Of a DNA stretch of 9,270 bases, positions 3,424 to 9,240 are shown in pieces. The stretch's first letter is position 1. The number at the start of each line of letters is the position of its first letter. Origin of the DNA: Candidatus Undinarchaeales archaeon (lineage in GTDB: Archaea; SpSt-1190; JASMDC01); NCBI GenBank assembly GCA_030753015.1, contig JASMDC010000008.1, positions 1 through 9,270 of the forward strand. The letters run 5' to 3'. Below the pieces are notes generated by a model that had not been told where the DNA came from, made no database searches, and saw only the letters and a list, made by a program, of their open reading frames with translations. Both the position numbers and the translations under genes were made by a program.

Positions 3424-4104
3424 TCAGATCTCGATCTCGTACCGCAGCCACACGATGCCGTCCTTGAGCTCTTCTGCCTTCAGCAAACGGGCCTTGATGA
3501 TCCCAGCGGGATTCTCCAGGTCCACTGCATTGAATATCGACGCGGATTGGGTGTCACCCACCAGGCAAGGATGGACGAGAACGCTCACTTCGTCCACGAG
3601 ACCGGCTCTGAGCATGACACCGTTGAGGGTACCTCCGCTATCCATGCGCACGATTCTCACACCATAACGCTGATTTAACTCCTTTAAAGCAGCGCACATA
3701 TCGACATGATCGTCCCCAGCAACGATTGTAGCAATATTCCGCTCTTTCAGATAGTCTATGTATTCTCTCGGTGTGGACATTGACACAAGTGCGACAACAT
3801 CCCGCCATATGCCGCTGTTCCGCAGATGATGCCACATGCGCACTCGTCCACGGCTGTCAGGGATGACAAGGAGCGGTCGATCATCGTCAGGAGCGATCTT
3901 CCATGGTTTGAGGTCATCAGGAGTCTCTGGTGGGACCTCCTCACCGAACAGCTCAGGGCCCGCGAGGATCGTATCGGCCCCTGCAAGGGTGGCATCCTCG
4001 CCCCACTGATGGACCAGCCCGTAGTATACACCAAGGTTGGGCATGAAACCAGTGATACGGCCATCGATGCTCGACGCGTTATGGATAATGACTCGGGGGA
4101 GCAT
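3424..4104 (-). CDS. RibD C-terminal / dihydrofolate-reductase-like NAD(P)H-dependent reductase
   Basis: 226 residues, the usual length of the stand-alone archaeal reductase. The N-terminus RVIIHNASSIDGRITGF (4-20) is the first strand and substrate loop of the family. DADTILAGP-like residues (43-50) fit the second part. SGGTLNGVMLRAGLVDEVS (156-174) is the classic G-G-T-L-N nucleotide-binding and dimer region, followed by HPCLVG (178-183). Relatives reduce the ribosyl side chain of the diaminopyrimidine intermediate in riboflavin and F420 synthesis. The middle (residues 51-90) is divergent, with a Pro/Asp-rich insertion instead of the usual DNP-x-LT motif, so the exact substrate is uncertain. 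No riboflavin gene lies beside it. It is the last gene of the minus-strand block, 61 bases after the 7TM gene. Confidence 0.85.
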   Translation of the reverse strand: MLPRVIIHNASSIDGRITGFMPNLGVYYGLVHQWGEDATLAGADTILAGPELFGEEVPPETPDDLKPWKIAPDDDRPLLVIPDSRGRVRMWHHLRNSGIWRDVVALVSMSTPREYIDYLKERNIATIVAGDDHVDMCAALKELNQRYGVRIVRMDSGGTLNGVMLRAGLVDEVSVLVHPCLVGDTQSASIFNAVDLENPAGIIKARLLKAEELKDGIVWLRYEIEI

Positions 4105-4165: not shown

Positions 4166-5308
4166 TCATGGATCACGGTCTTCTTCGATCCCAGCCTCGC
4201 TCTTCACATCTCGCTCCATCCTCTCATGATCCTCTTTTGTGATGTCGAGCGCCGCCCTGAGCGCCTCAAGCATCTTCCTTTCCTTTTTCGTGAGGATACC
4301 ATCATCCCACGCGATGGCAAGCTCCGTTCGATACAGCTCGGCATTCTTCTTGTTGTCCGTTGGAGGGGATCGTCCACCGTTCGGGAGGAGCTTGTCGGTG
4401 AGATTCTGGCTCAGGGACCGGGCCGGGATGGAGAGCAGTACAACGAATCCGGCAGATACCACATTGGACAGGTGCATTCCAGCGAACACCGTCGTCGAGA
4501 CGAGGTCCTCCATGAGCTCCTGGACGACGAAGAACACAAGGGTGAGGATGCTCGTCATCATGCCGTAGAGCACGCTCTTGCGCACGATGATGTCGATGTC
4601 GAACAAGCGTTCCTTGACGATACCGTATGCAATGATACCGAACGAGATGGGCAACGTCATCAGCACGGGATTGATCCCGGGAGATGTGTTGAACATGAAT
4701 CGATAGACCAACAGGGCGAACGAAGTGATGAACGGGACGAACGAGGAGAGCACGAAGTATGCAGATCGCCGTCGGAGTTCGATGTCGTCCCTTTGCCTGA
4801 ACATACGGAAGAACGTCGAGAACACCAGAGCGAGCATGACGGGAACGTAAACGAAGATGAACAGCATCAAGTATGAATCAGGACTCGGTGAGAACGCACC
4901 GAACGATGCATCCCAACCTATGACTGAATCCCCGATAACCATGTCGGGTACCAAGACCATGGATATGGCAGCGATGGTGGGAAGGATGTAGACAGCAAGG
5001 TATCTCCTGTGTTTGAGGACAATCCCCTTCTCCCAGAATACGTATGCGAAGTGAAGGAACGCAGAGACCGAAAAGACGTCCGAGATTATATACACACCGA
5101 ACCATAGTCGCCAGGTGGAGAGGTCCTGGCTGCATACCAGCATCGCTGCAGAGAGGCAGATGAGTGCGGCGAGGAAGAGCGCGAGCGCGAAGAGCCTGAC
5201 ATAGCCCTCATCACGCTTCTTCTTCAGCAGGAATGCGCCCAAGAGCGTGCAGACTAAGAAAGGGATTATGTAAAGGATTGCACGGGGATCGAACACGTAT
5301 GATGTCAT
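4166..5308 (-). CDS. 7TM membrane protein resembling histidine-kinase N-terminal sensor regions, without a kinase domain
   Basis: 380 residues. Hydrophobic segments occur at about 10-28, 39-58, 68-92, 103-124, 146-167, 182-206, 213-232, 245-266 and 282-299. The stretch ending IIAYGIVKERLFDIDIIVRKS (225-245) is typical of the 7TM sensor region found at the N-terminus of some histidine kinases. No H-box, N-box or ATPase motif follows. Instead residues 325-367 form a charged helical tail: YRTELAIAWDDGILTKKE (326-343), then MLEALRAALDIT and H361. Tails of this kind recur in archaeal membrane and signalling proteins, from memory, and may be a protein-interaction domain. The start is ATG 5308, 35 bases after the ATP-grasp stop, supported by a TATA-like box 23 bases upstream. 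It may sense a signal linked to the preceding metabolic genes; that is speculation. Confidence 0.7.
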   Translation of the reverse strand: MTSYVFDPRAILYIIPFLVCTLLGAFLLKKKRDEGYVRLFALALFLAALICLSAAMLVCSQDLSTWRLWFGVYIISDVFSVSAFLHFAYVFWEKGIVLKHRRYLAVYILPTIAAISMVLVPDMVIGDSVIGWDASFGAFSPSPDSYLMLFIFVYVPVMLALVFSTFFRMFRQRDDIELRRRSAYFVLSSFVPFITSFALLVYRFMFNTSPGINPVLMTLPISFGIIAYGIVKERLFDIDIIVRKSVLYGMMTSILTLVFFVVQELMEDLVSTTVFAGMHLSNVVSAGFVVLLSIPARSLSQNLTDKLLPNGGRSPPTDNKKNAELYRTELAIAWDDGILTKKERKMLEALRAALDITKEDHERMERDVKSEAGIEEDRDP

Positions 5309-5343: not shown

Positions 5344-6324
5344 TTACCTGTACCTATCCACCGCGGAAACGAGCACCGCCTGGATGAGCTGCTGATAGTC
5401 CTTCCCGAGCGTGCTCCATGCGTCGTAGAACGAACCGCTCTGGTGGATAGCGGCCATTGAGTTGAGCTCGAGTATCCATGGATTGCCGTCATCATCTATC
5501 CTGAAGTCCACACGTGCACAATCCCGGCACCCAAGAGCCTGGAATGCCGAGACGGTGAGGTCCTGAACGTTCTCGGTCTGCTCGTCAGAGAGGCGCGCAG
5601 GGCACACGTGACTTGCGACACGGTCACGCTTGGTCTCGAACGAGAGGATGCGTGACGTCCCTTTCATGTTACCGAAGTCGATCTCGAGCACAGGGAGCGC
5701 CTTCGGAGGATCGTTGCCGAGCACACCACAGTTGACCTCCATACCGGAGATGAACCGCTCAACAAGGGCGGGTTGCTGGTATTCGTCGATGATGGCCGCT
5801 ACGGCCTTTCGCAGGCTAGGCTCATCCTCGACGACCTGGATACCAAAGCTCGTGGACTCCATCTTGGGCTTCACGATAAGCGGGAAGACCAGTTCGTCGG
5901 TCAACACATCATCAGGTGTATTGAATAGCTGGAAGGCTGGTGTAGGGAGCCCGGCGCTCCTGAGAACGACCTTAGCCAGGTACTTGTCGAGCGCGATGGT
6001 ATGTGCCCTGGGCCCAGAGCAGACATAGGGGATCCCAGCTAGTTCGAGTATCGATGGAATGTGTGTGTACCTGCATTCCCCCTGGACGCCATAGGCGAGG
6101 TTGAACACCATGAGGTCGGCTGGATCCTCAAGGGAAGAAAGGAGGCTCTCTAGACGAGGGATCAGGTCCACGTCACCTTCGAGCACTGTTACGTCATGGC
6201 CGCTGGCGCTCAAGGCCTTCTTGACCGCTTCAATATCCTCCTCTTTGTAGTACTCCTTGTTCTGCATACCGAGCTGGCGAAGCCGTCGCGCCTCGGGCGT
6301 GTTGCGGACGATAGCGATGTGCAT
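5344..6324 (-). CDS. ATP-grasp ligase, D-Ala-D-Ala-ligase-like
   Basis: 326 residues. ATP-grasp enzymes activate a carboxylate as acyl phosphate and join it to an amine. The N-terminal domain begins MHIAIVRNTPEA. FNLAYGVQGECR (74-85) matches the FN...G..GE region of Ddl enzymes. LDK (112-114), FPLIVKPKMESTSFGI (147-162) with K152, and LVERFI (187-192) with GMEVNCGVLG (194-203) are the central ATP-binding elements. CARVDFR (269-275) and LELNS (285-289) are the metal-binding elements. The Ddl sequence that usually follows (N-T-x-P-G-[ML]-T) is replaced by NSMAAIHQSG, so the second substrate is probably not D-alanine. GAGGTGA at 6330-6336, five bases before ATG 6324, fixes the start; a longer in-frame extension inside the M20 gene is unlikely. 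It lies 16 bases after the M20 stop. It probably links an amino acid, perhaps the beta-amino acid from the aminomutase. Confidence 0.88.
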   Translation of the reverse strand: MHIAIVRNTPEARRLRQLGMQNKEYYKEEDIEAVKKALSASGHDVTVLEGDVDLIPRLESLLSSLEDPADLMVFNLAYGVQGECRYTHIPSILELAGIPYVCSGPRAHTIALDKYLAKVVLRSAGLPTPAFQLFNTPDDVLTDELVFPLIVKPKMESTSFGIQVVEDEPSLRKAVAAIIDEYQQPALVERFISGMEVNCGVLGNDPPKALPVLEIDFGNMKGTSRILSFETKRDRVASHVCPARLSDEQTENVQDLTVSAFQALGCRDCARVDFRIDDDGNPWILELNSMAAIHQSGSFYDAWSTLGKDYQQLIQAVLVSAVDRYR

Positions 6325-6329
6325 AGGGT

Positions 6330-6336
6330 TCACCTC
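6330..6336 (-). promoter_or_regulatory. Strong Shine-Dalgarno site that sets the ATP-grasp start
   Basis: The minus strand reads GAGGTGA, five bases (ACCCT) before ATG 6324. It closely complements the archaeal 16S rRNA 3' end and overlaps no coding sequence, lying in the gap after the M20 stop (6341-6343). It shows that this gene is translated from its own site within a longer transcript. Confidence 0.75.
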
Positions 6337-6340
6337 AAGG

Positions 6341-7531
6341 TCAGTTCGATCTATCGTACGAGACATATGTAGCGAGCAATGTCGCAGTGAGCATGGAACG
6401 TTGGAAGAGCGAAGGTAGGTACAGGCGCTCCTGAGGAGTATGATCGTCGAAGCCGATGGGGCCAAGACCATCCAGTGTAGGGACTCCGGATGCTCCGAAC
6501 CAGCTCGAGTCAGCCGTACCGGTACGACGCTCCTTCTGCACGTTCTGTCGGAGCGCTGCGGCCACGGACTGTATCCTTTCGAGGAGGTAGCCTGTCCCCT
6601 CGTTCTCGGGCCAGGCTGGACGGAAGCTCGTGAGCTTGAGCGAGTTCTGGGCACCGGTCACGGTCGGGATTGCACATATCTGCTCCATGTCCTCCTTGAT
6701 CGCTCTTTCTGATGCGGGATCCCAGAACCAGATGTCCACTAAAGCGGTAGCAGAAGATGGGACCGTGTTCCTGGCCTCTCCTCCCCATGCTCGTCCCACG
6801 TTGAAGGCCGTCCCTGGATACTTCCCGTTAAGACCTTCCACAGCGATTATCTTGTGGGAGAGCTCCTCGAGGGCGCTCGTCTTGAACGATTGGAGCAATC
6901 CCGCATGATAAGCTACTCCTTGGACATCCAGCTGGTAGGCGACCTTGGCACGTCGTGAGACGACGACCTCGCCTTTGGGGCCTCCGCACTCGAAGTATAG
7001 GGCCAGCTCGGTGTTACGGGCCAAGGGTTTGAAGAGAGGCCGTGATGTCGTTGAAGCACGCTCCTCATCGCTGTTCAGAACAACGGTGATGGCAAGCCCG
7101 TCCATTAGTCCCGCTGCCTTCAGAGATTCCAGGGCAGCGAGCATGACGACGATACCGCCCTTCATATCGCTCGTACCGGGGCCTATCGCGTACTCACCGT
7201 TGATCGTGAAGGCGGGCAGCTGAGTGTAGTCCGTATAGGTGGTGTCTGTATGTCCTCCGAGCACGATCTGCTTACCTTCCATGCCGTTGGTGGCTACTAG
7301 ATGGTCGCCGAACCCTCGCGCAGAGTGACGTCTTACGGTCATTCCGAGGGCCTTAAGCCTCAGCTCAATGAGCTCATTGACTCTTTGAACGCCTTCGACC
7401 ATATCGGAACCGCAGGGTATGTCGACGAGTTTCTTGAGCGTCTCGATGTACTGCTGTTGCTCCTTCTCAAGGATCGCTTTGAACTGTCCAACGACCGATT
7501 GCGGGACAGTGATGCTATCCTGTTCGGTCAT
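6341..7531 (-). CDS. M20 family metallopeptidase (carboxypeptidase G2 / ArgE-DapE-like)
   Basis: 396 residues from ATG 7531. It is a two-zinc amidohydrolase or peptidase with all ligands in place: H94 and catalytic D96 in GGHTDT, bridging D122 in GPGTSDMKGG, catalytic E156 with E157 in NSDEE, E181 in LYFECGG, and H364 in DDHTPQE. GVPTLDGLGP (349-358) is typical of the carboxypeptidase G2 and glutamate carboxypeptidase branch, which removes C-terminal amino acids from dipeptides and acyl-amino acids. H209 in GVAYHAGL is the dimer-domain histidine. A GTG at 7540 overlaps the aminomutase stop (GTGA) and is an alternative start, but GAGTGA-N5-ATG 7531 mirrors the ribosome site of the next gene, so 7531 is preferred. 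Its stop falls 16 bases before the ATP-grasp start. It may hydrolyse the peptide made by that ligase. Confidence 0.92.
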   Translation of the reverse strand: MTEQDSITVPQSVVGQFKAILEKEQQQYIETLKKLVDIPCGSDMVEGVQRVNELIELRLKALGMTVRRHSARGFGDHLVATNGMEGKQIVLGGHTDTTYTDYTQLPAFTINGEYAIGPGTSDMKGGIVVMLAALESLKAAGLMDGLAITVVLNSDEERASTTSRPLFKPLARNTELALYFECGGPKGEVVVSRRAKVAYQLDVQGVAYHAGLLQSFKTSALEELSHKIIAVEGLNGKYPGTAFNVGRAWGGEARNTVPSSATALVDIWFWDPASERAIKEDMEQICAIPTVTGAQNSLKLTSFRPAWPENEGTGYLLERIQSVAAALRQNVQKERRTGTADSSWFGASGVPTLDGLGPIGFDDHTPQERLYLPSLFQRSMLTATLLATYVSYDRSN

Positions 7532-7536
7532 TGACG

Positions 7537-8856
7537 TCACTCACGAATGTAATCGGGATCCCGCTTCTCATCATCGTAGTCCATTACAAGACCTTGCCAC
7601 GAGCGGAACCGTGCTTTGCCGTTAGCGTTGATGTTCAATAGGTAGTTGGGCATTACAGGCGTCTTGCCCCTGCCCATGGGTAGTGTGCAGATATAGGTGG
7701 GCACCGCAAGGCCTGATGTGTAGTTGCGCAGGTACTCCATGATGTTGTACCCGTCCTGGATGCTCGGCCTGAAATGTCGGATTCCCTCGAGCATCTTGCA
7801 GTTGAAGATGTAGTATGGTCTGACCTTGATGGTTAGGAGTTCTTGGCACAGCTTCTTCATCACATGACGGTCGGTGTTGATGCCACGCAGCAGCACGCTC
7901 TGGTTCCCGAGCAGGATGCCTGCACGAGTAAGCTTGTCGCAAGCTTCGGCGGCCTCGTTGGTGATCTCCTTCGGGTGGTTGTACTGTGTGTTGAGGTAGA
8001 GCGGGTCGTGCGTGGAGAGCATCTCGCACAGGTCGTCGGTGACACGCATGGGGAGCACACAGGGCATCCGAGTTCCAAGACGCTTTATCTCGACGTGAGG
8101 GATGGCATCCAGTTCACCGAGGATCCAATCAAGACGCTCGTTCGTAAGCGCGAACGCATCACCGCCTGTGATGAGCACGTCCCGAATCTCCTCATGCTCC
8201 TGCACGTAATCCAGTGCCATGGATATGTCCTTCTTGGAGTAGAGAAGGTTCTCATGGCTGATGTGCCGACGCCTGAGGCAATGTCGACAGAACATGGCGC
8301 AAGCGTTGGTGACATTGATGATGAGCCGGTCAGGATAGAGCCTGGTGATTAGGGGGGCCGGTGAATTGTACAGGACAGTCTCCGGGTCCTTCTCGACCGT
8401 GGTATCCAGCACTTCATTTACAATCGGGATGCTCTGCATACGTACGGGACAATTACGGTCTTTCCTGTCCATGAGACTGGCGTAGTAAGGAGAGACGCCC
8501 CAGCGGTACATCTCCTCGACATCCCTGATATGTCCATGTTCCTCCTTGGAGAGGTCGATGATACGGACGAGCTGGTCCACGCTCCTGATGGTGTTGCGGA
8601 GGTGCCATCGCCAGTCCTTCCAGTCGTCGTCCGTACCACCGAGCACGTCGAGGATGCGCTTCTTGTTCTTCACGTACTGAGCTGCGAGCTTTCGCCCGGT
8701 CGGGATCGAGTCCTTGACCGCCAGATAGTCGGCGATGGACTCCTTGTACGACTCACATCGCTCGAGGGCATACTTACGCTTCTCGGGTGTTATGTGGAGG
8801 AGGGTCTTCTCAACGGGTACGAACGTCGAATCGGATGTATCGTCCTTCTTTGCCAT
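7537..8856 (-). CDS. eam: KamA-family radical SAM aminomutase, probable glutamate 2,3-aminomutase
   Basis: 439 residues, in the KamA family, which moves an alpha-amino group to the beta carbon using SAM, a 4Fe-4S cluster and PLP. The cluster motif is CAMFCRHC (C186, C190, C193), followed by LRRRH. ITGGDAF (229-235), LGNQSVLLRGIN (316-327) and VRPYYIFNC (345-353) are family signatures. GKTPVMPNY (397-405) holds the PLP lysine K398. The Clostridium lysine enzyme binds the substrate amine with Asp293 and Asp330; the aligned residues here are K354 and T391. The characterised glutamate enzyme has Lys and Asn there, so an acidic substrate is likely and lysine is disfavoured. The N-terminal domain includes DWKDWRWHLRN (78-88). 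A GGTG lies eight bases before ATG 8856. It is coupled to the M20 gene. Alternative: an aminomutase for another acidic substrate. Confidence 0.85.
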   Translation of the reverse strand: MAKKDDTSDSTFVPVEKTLLHITPEKRKYALERCESYKESIADYLAVKDSIPTGRKLAAQYVKNKKRILDVLGGTDDDWKDWRWHLRNTIRSVDQLVRIIDLSKEEHGHIRDVEEMYRWGVSPYYASLMDRKDRNCPVRMQSIPIVNEVLDTTVEKDPETVLYNSPAPLITRLYPDRLIINVTNACAMFCRHCLRRRHISHENLLYSKKDISMALDYVQEHEEIRDVLITGGDAFALTNERLDWILGELDAIPHVEIKRLGTRMPCVLPMRVTDDLCEMLSTHDPLYLNTQYNHPKEITNEAAEACDKLTRAGILLGNQSVLLRGINTDRHVMKKLCQELLTIKVRPYYIFNCKMLEGIRHFRPSIQDGYNIMEYLRNYTSGLAVPTYICTLPMGRGKTPVMPNYLLNINANGKARFRSWQGLVMDYDDEKRDPDYIRE

Positions 8857-8919: not shown

Positions 8920-8930
8920 GTATAAAAGGT
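8920..8930 (-). promoter_or_regulatory. TATA box for the aminomutase-peptidase-ligase operon
   Basis: The minus strand reads ACCTTTTATAC in the 102-base gap after the isomerase-like gene. Transcription would begin near 8900 and leave a leader of about 44 nt with a GGTG ribosome site (8865-8868). It is the only strong TATA box in the three-gene unit, consistent with one mRNA for the aminomutase, M20 and ATP-grasp genes. Confidence 0.5.
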
Positions 8931-8958: not shown

Positions 8959-9240
8959 TCAGAAATAGCGTTCGAGATGCTCTCTGGACGCCACGGCGTC
9001 CTCGATGGTGTACCCTTCCCGCATCTCTATGTCAACGACCCTGAGATGAGGGAGCGTTGCCACCTGGCGGTAGACGTCATCGGGGAGGCTGCCGGAGACA
9101 GGTTGGTGAAGATCGGACCTTCCATCGTTGTCGTGCATGTGCACGTGTATGGTGTATTCGCCCAGCGCCTCGATCGACATTTCTTCCAGGTTTTTAGGCG
9201 CCGGTTTTTGTTGTTGGGGTTCCAAATCGTCGGTATCCAT
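8959..9240 (-). CDS. Short protein resembling the C-terminal part of a sugar phosphate isomerase / AP-endonuclease-2 TIM barrel
   Basis: 93 residues. IHVHMHDNDGRSDLHQP (31-47) matches the late-barrel motif h-H-x-H-D-N-D-G-x-x-D-x-H of xylose-isomerase-like TIM barrels, where the His and Asp residues bind metal. VVDIEMREG (68-76) fits the final strand with its metal-binding Glu, and EDAVASREHLERYF fits the last helix. The rest of the barrel (usually about 170-200 more residues) is absent. Residues 1-29 are acidic, then Gln/Pro-rich, and do not look like the barrel. An in-frame TAG at 9253-9255 closes the frame upstream. A good ribosome site (GGAGG, seven bases before ATG 9240) argues for a real short gene rather than decay. 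The missing N-terminal part could lie beyond the window edge in another frame, making this a broken gene. Confidence 0.6.
   Translation of the reverse strand: MDTDDLEPQQQKPAPKNLEEMSIEALGEYTIHVHMHDNDGRSDLHQPVSGSLPDDVYRQVATLPHLRVVDIEMREGYTIEDAVASREHLERYF

Follow-up and report, generated by a model that had tools for sequence, protein, structure and literature searches.

The 9,270 bases analysed here (the window) are the first part of the 111,644-base contig JASMDC010000008.1 of a Candidatus Undinarchaeales archaeon (genome of 3.85 Mb in 117 contigs). They carry a minus-strand operon of three genes encoding, in order, a KamA-family aminomutase, an M20-family metallohydrolase and an ATP-grasp ligase; the first two lie 5 bases apart and the last two 16. 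The linkage of these genes is strongly supported, and the 20 related bacterial loci span at least eight phylum-level lineages. Judging from the sequences, we narrowly favour the view that the cassette builds and recycles a beta-amino-acid conjugate by glutamate-type aminomutation, ATP-dependent ligation and M20 cleavage. A sequence-only reading of the window had proposed a similar scheme, which as a whole is partly supported: its coordinates for the packed genes were exact, and its family assignments agree with the profiles (Glu_2_3_NH3_mut/KamA; Peptidase_M20 with the M20 dimer domain; Dala_Dala_lig_C). No description of an aminomutase/ATP-grasp/M20 cluster was found in the literature searched, which covers few subscription papers, and clusters of this type are apparently undescribed.

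Relatives were sought in genomes with the patterns [RK]PYYIF[NH][CA] and [AGS][LM][FY]CRHC[LQ]R, each match being confirmed by tblastn with the real window protein; the rows added to the underlying alignment (A2) were synthetic and were used just to set these patterns. The scan gave at least 543 relatives, members lacking the patterns possibly being missed, and the best 80 were analysed. These comprise 60 loci of ordinary glutamate 2,3-aminomutases (EAM) and a clade of 20 loci (L036-L055) whose aminomutases are 57-71% identical to that of the window. The M20 gene lies immediately downstream of the aminomutase in all 20 clade loci (the copy of L048 is broken by a run of N) and an ATP-grasp gene adjoins in 18, whereas neither was found adjacent to any of the 60 ordinary EAM loci, whose flank lengths vary. 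The conserved neighbourhood by which the sequence-only reading had proposed to check its scheme is therefore present, and the scheme withstands the refutation named there, separation of the genes in relatives. As the loci share descent they do not represent 20 independent events; the linkage persists across four subclades, and these are identical in the M20 and aminomutase trees.

The ligase position is occupied by two families. Ddl-like proteins take it in L036, L041 (where the contig ends within the gene), L042 and L050-L055; in a single bacterial branch (L039, L040 and L043-L049) it is taken by another family, X (PF02655). The gene follows that of the M20 enzyme in the window and in L036 and precedes the aminomutase in most others. 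Moreover, the X ligase and the aminomutase form one continuous frame in two loci (L043:6477-9245, 922 aa; L045:556-3312, 918 aa), and L050 has a Ddl-like::M20 fusion gene. The use of two ligase families in the same slot, together with the fusions, argues for a single pathway. The Latescibacterota genome of L050 also holds a second Ddl-like::M20 fusion (L124, G408:C47, 3822-7590), which lacks an aminomutase and overlaps a gene recognised by sequence as gamma-glutamyltransferase-like.

The window aminomutase is closest to TIGR04368 (glutamate 2,3-aminomutase; 582.5 bits), followed by the model for lysine 2,3-aminomutase (KAM; 432 bits), and it passes the cut-off of the KamA superfamily TIGR00238 (318 against 199 bits). 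Alignment to the KAM structure 2a5h showed that the cysteines C186, C190 and C193 and the pyridoxal phosphate (PLP) lysine K398 are retained, while the KAM substrate aspartates Asp293 and Asp330 are replaced by Lys354 and Thr391. Lys and Asn occupy these two positions in 20 of the 20 ordinary EAMs examined. The residue identities of the Clostridioides difficile EAM, an enzyme reportedly described by Ruzicka and Frey in 2007, are our assumption, for which scoring of substitutions with TIGR04368 gave an indirect check: Asp or Ala in place of Lys354 lowers the score by 2.7 bits, and Asn in place of Thr391 raises it by 3.6 bits. The earlier suggestion of beta-glutamate or a relative as product accordingly fares well as regards glutamate over lysine, given Lys354 and the scores of 582 against 432 bits, and less well as regards Thr391, which is the residue of neither KAM nor EAM.

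The window enzyme shares with the EAMs the radical S-adenosylmethionine (SAM) and PLP machinery, 50-57% identity to clostridial members and the Lys at the KAM Asp293 position. Nevertheless, it and the 20 clade loci are split off by one branch (IQ-TREE support 100/100) and have in common CRHC-Leu, FNCK or FHCK, and Thr, where CRHC-Gln and Asn are found in the other sequences examined. On these sequence grounds the aminomutase belongs to a sister clade of glutamate 2,3-aminomutase, here called 'LKT', which is distinct from it and has its own active-site class. With lysine 2,3-aminomutase AblA it shares superfamily and reaction type, but it lacks the Asp293/Asp330 equivalents. Near the cassette in two loci there is a second KamA-like radical SAM protein without the PLP-lysine motif (L055:5678-6820 and L050:5669-7462).

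The clade hosts include Zipacnadia, Planctomycetota, Desulfobacterota, Nitrospirota, Latescibacterota, Krumholzibacteriota, WOR-3, CSSED10-310 and Acidobacteria. The cassette is rare and patchy in its distribution. Viral contigs scanned with the window protein contained no relatives. Among 394 archaeal genomes near that of the window, TIGR04368 found no cassette-type aminomutase except the window's own; the other matches were KAM-type or other KamA proteins far below the cut-off, and their correctly framed alignments were not EAM-like. Likewise, the 395, 289, 388 and 384 genomes akin to four cassette hosts had no cassette-type aminomutase (above 700 bits) outside the genomes already known. The window aminomutase groups with those of Zipacnadia (L036) and two Planctomycetota (support 100/99), and the window M20 and ligase cluster with the L036 clade in their own trees, that of the Ddl-like ligases being poorly resolved (2 of 11 branches starred). 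Since the trees group the window genes with L036, the cassette was probably acquired by the archaeon from a bacterium related to that host, and it seems to travel between domains as a unit. The contig itself, judging from its genes, is of archaeal origin rather than bacterial contamination, because its translated open reading frames include, on inspection, transcription factor B, ribosomal protein S8e, a nascent-polypeptide-associated complex protein and a prefoldin-like protein. The G+C content of the operon, 56.5%, is near the 58.4% of the contig.

The window ligase has the fold of D-Ala-D-Ala ligases, which make up all of the 50 closest folds listed by Foldseek for its AlphaFold2 model (mean predicted local distance difference test score 84), and it has the ATP-grasp catalytic residues; K152, E189, D273, E286 and N288, which contact ATP or Mg, are invariant among the cassette homologues. 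A true D-Ala-D-Ala ligase was nevertheless rejected. The cut-offs are missed (PRK01372, 171.6 against 243 bits; TIGR01205, 162.8 against 245.65 bits), and alignment to the Mycobacterium tuberculosis Ddl 3lwb places Tyr78 and Arg233 at what we take to be His63 and Tyr216 of Escherichia coli DdlB. None of the cassette homologues has the Tyr following the loop Lys, and they carry QG-x-[CSA]-RYTH-x-P where Ddl has G-x-x-GEDG. With a profile built from them, intact cassette ligases score 429-569 bits, against no more than 183 for the remaining Ddl-type proteins of these genomes; the bacterial hosts retain a separate, lower-scoring Ddl-type gene, and the window genome has one further, weak Ddl-type match only. 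For the X ligase the nearest solved sequence is BesA (8yi6), an L-propargylglycine--L-glutamate ligase (E 1.3e-9), and a structure search gave mainly generic ATP-grasp matches.

The metal site of the M20 enzyme (H94, D122, E157, E181 and H364, with the catalytic D96 and E156) is complete and invariant in 15 cassette homologues. The fourth metal ligand of M20 enzymes is Glu in carboxypeptidase G2 and aminoacylases and Asp in carnosinase and PepV; in the window protein it is Glu181. The equivalents of carboxypeptidase G2 His229 and Arg324 are also retained, whereas Arg288 is replaced by Trp, and the protein scores under the cut-offs of every named M20 subfamily. An analogy is offered by carnosine, a beta-alanine dipeptide made by an ATP-grasp synthase and cleaved by an M20 dipeptidase. 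The cassette resembles that system in its beta-amino acid, ATP-grasp ligase and M20 hydrolase and differs in the ATP-grasp family, in the Glu ligand where carnosinase has Asp, and in being a prokaryotic operon that includes the aminomutase.

Transport genes accompany some of the bacterial loci. Five cassettes (L039, L042, L046, L047 and L049) have genes for a TRAP-TAXI permease and its binding protein nearby, and the binding proteins retain Y45, S75, Q93, H123, E125 and Y200 of the glutamate-specific binding protein VcGluP (PMC11574862), M201 being Thr. As 54% of TAXI sequences have Q93 and 20% have Y200 (PMC11574862), the match is suggestive of glutamate binding rather than proof of it. TRAP-TAXI genes were also found downstream of nine ordinary EAMs (L058, L066, L076, L084, L085, L088, L095, L104 and L110), where the binding proteins deviate from VcGluP (Q93M, H123Y, Y200A or W); these are candidate beta-glutamate transporters.

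In the pathway we propose, the aminomutase would act on L-glutamate, or on a closely similar acidic compound, and shift its amino group from C2 to C3, yielding beta-glutamate, a step suggested by the active-site residues and family. The ATP-grasp enzyme would then convert a carboxylate to the activated acyl phosphate and couple this to an amine, giving a dipeptide or amide of the beta-glutamyl type. Finally the M20 hydrolase would split this conjugate so that its parts are recycled. The beta-glutamate conjugate as product and the recycling role of M20 are what we infer from these assignments. A compatible-solute (osmolyte) or storage purpose is possible, an osmolyte role being plausible because methanogens use beta-glutamate and beta-glutamine as solutes (PMC1224877).

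Several observations weigh against this proposal. The window aminomutase and its Zipacnadia relative (582.5 and 584.9 bits) both miss the TIGR04368 cut-off of 650, and ordinary EAMs have Asn in place of Thr391, which does not vary among the aligned clade members. No ligase is linked in two Planctomycetota loci that are close relatives of each other, a genome search found no TAXI protein in the window archaeon, and the M20 enzyme could act on a substrate other than the ligase product. Given the missed cut-off and the Thr, the aminomutase might act on some other acidic or polar amino acid. A substrate of this kind, for instance a polar or modified acidic one, would lead to a different beta-amino-acid conjugate by an otherwise identical scheme. 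We regard this as unlikely, though worth serious attention: the clade-wide Leu after CRHC and the distinct FNCK motif also speak for it, while Lys354 is common to glutamate aminomutases, TIGR04368 is the closest family by 150 bits and the neighbouring TAXI proteins retain glutamate ligands. On these residues and scores, glutamate is moderately favoured as the substrate.

The reactions of KamA aminomutases are reversible, and the cassette could instead serve catabolism or salvage, with M20 hydrolysing imported beta-glutamyl or related peptides, the aminomutase converting beta- to alpha-glutamate and the ligase trapping or re-ligating intermediates. The importers beside five cassettes and nine ordinary EAMs would fit such a role. 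We nevertheless find it rather improbable, as an ATP-consuming ligase that is kept in 18 of the 20 loci, drawn from two families and fused to the aminomutase, points to synthesis, and the missing archaeal TAXI protein counts against import as well.

A standard osmolyte system, either the ablA-ablB pathway to N-epsilon-acetyl-beta-lysine or beta-glutamine formation by glutamine synthetase, is suggested by the KamA family, the archaeal host and the methanogen solutes mentioned above. It is very improbable and was rejected, being contradicted by residues and gene content: both KAM substrate aspartates are missing, no AblB-type acetyltransferase was found in the cassette or among the window proteins, and the ligase belongs to the ATP-grasp enzymes rather than to the glutamine synthetases. 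The sequence-only reading had likewise set the operon apart from the ablA-ablB pair. The N-acetylglutaminylglutamine amide (NAGGN) osmolyte system, also an analogy, shares ATP-grasp ligation of glutamate-family residues and a dedicated peptidase, but its peptidase is M42 and it has a GNAT-ATP-grasp fusion and an amidotransferase. It was rejected since the cassette peptidase is M20 and among the window proteins the profile search listed no match to GNAT, amidotransferase or M42 families. Chance adjacency of three unrelated genes, for which only the rarity of the cassette and the two loci without ligase speak, is hardly credible and is refuted by a neighbourhood that persists, in varied gene orders, in at least eight phylum-level lineages, by the fusions and by co-inheritance.

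The features of the locus are collected in Table 1. The TATA box that the sequence-only reading placed ahead of the operon corresponds to the TATA-like TTTTATA, 64 bases upstream of the aminomutase ATG, a motif that occurs only 12 times on the 111.6-kb contig, both strands together. That reading also gave each gene a Shine-Dalgarno-like site; this holds in part, the site of the ligase being strong and those of the aminomutase and M20 weak. Transcription may extend beyond the three genes, because a 7TM gene and then a RibD_C gene, starting 35 bases past the ligase, continue on the same strand; neither was found by tblastn beside the cassette in relatives.

Table 1. Positions in the window of the cassette genes, key residues, candidate signals and adjoining genes.
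Feature	Position	Strand	Evidence
KamA-family radical SAM/PLP aminomutase, 439 aa	7537..8856	-	TIGR04368 582 bits, KAM model 432; clade support 100/100
M20-family metallohydrolase, carboxypeptidase-G2-like, 396 aa	6341..7531 (ATG at 7531)	-	Profiles; conserved metal site
Ddl-like ATP-grasp ligase, 326 aa	5344..6324 (ATG at 6324)	-	Profiles; predicted fold
[4Fe-4S]/SAM motif C186-x3-C190-x2-C193 (CAMFCRHC), then Leu194	8278..8301	-	Alignment to 2a5h and relatives
Lys354 codon (KAM Asp293 position)	7795..7797	-	Alignments; TIGR04368 residue preference
Thr391 codon (KAM Asp330 position; Asn in ordinary EAM)	7684..7686	-	Alignments; substitution scores
Lys398 codon, PLP-binding lysine (KAM Lys337)	7663..7665	-	Alignments
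Shine-Dalgarno-like GAGGTGA upstream of ligase	6330..6336	-	Sequence
TATA-like TTTTATA, candidate archaeal promoter of operon	8921..8927	-	Sequence
HisKA_7TM-type membrane protein, possibly co-transcribed, outside conserved cassette	4166..5308	-	Profile; tblastn in relatives
RibD_C protein	3424..4104	-	Profile

Elsewhere in the window, positions 1-2103 encode a large cysteine-rich protein, truncated by the contig start and without a Pfam or NCBIfam match, which is adjoined by two DUF4870 genes on the opposite strand. Upstream of the operon, two overlapping minus-strand frames (window 8959-9240 and contig C106 9194-9967) resemble the two parts of one TIM-barrel isomerase of the sugar isomerase type, possibly split by a frameshift. 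The archaeal 16S model had no match in the window's own genome, and this genome is 3.85 Mb in size against 0.6-1.1 Mb in the nearest relatives compared, which are of the same class only.

The combination of an aminomutase with an ATP-grasp enzyme may be a general pattern, because Ddl-like ligases also adjoin a lysine-type KAM in about 12 loci (L027, L134, L136, L137, L141, L142, L149, L153, L155, L161, L162 and L168) and in L125 (G398:C170, 1460-6723). Inspection of the latter showed a lysine-type KAM, two Ddl-like ligases and a gene whose product resembles an acetyltransferase joined to an amidohydrolase of the histone-deacetylase type. No report of this pattern was found in the same literature. 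Tentatively, and with some doubt, we propose that bacteria and archaea have an undescribed class of beta-amino-acid conjugate pathways, with a glutamate branch that includes M20 and a lysine branch in which one or two Ddl-like ligases accompany KAM, the products being small beta-peptides that serve as solutes, stores or signals.

If the pathway proposed for the cassette is right, uncultured anaerobes would possess a further family of metabolites, based on beta-amino acids and formed independently of the ribosome and of non-ribosomal peptide synthetases. Radical SAM aminomutases would gain a new partner chemistry, and the three-enzyme route would be directly testable. In addition, the archaeon would hold a complete pathway of bacterial type that was gained as a unit. 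The Lys and Thr signature defines a new specificity class in a family whose substrate is set by two residues.

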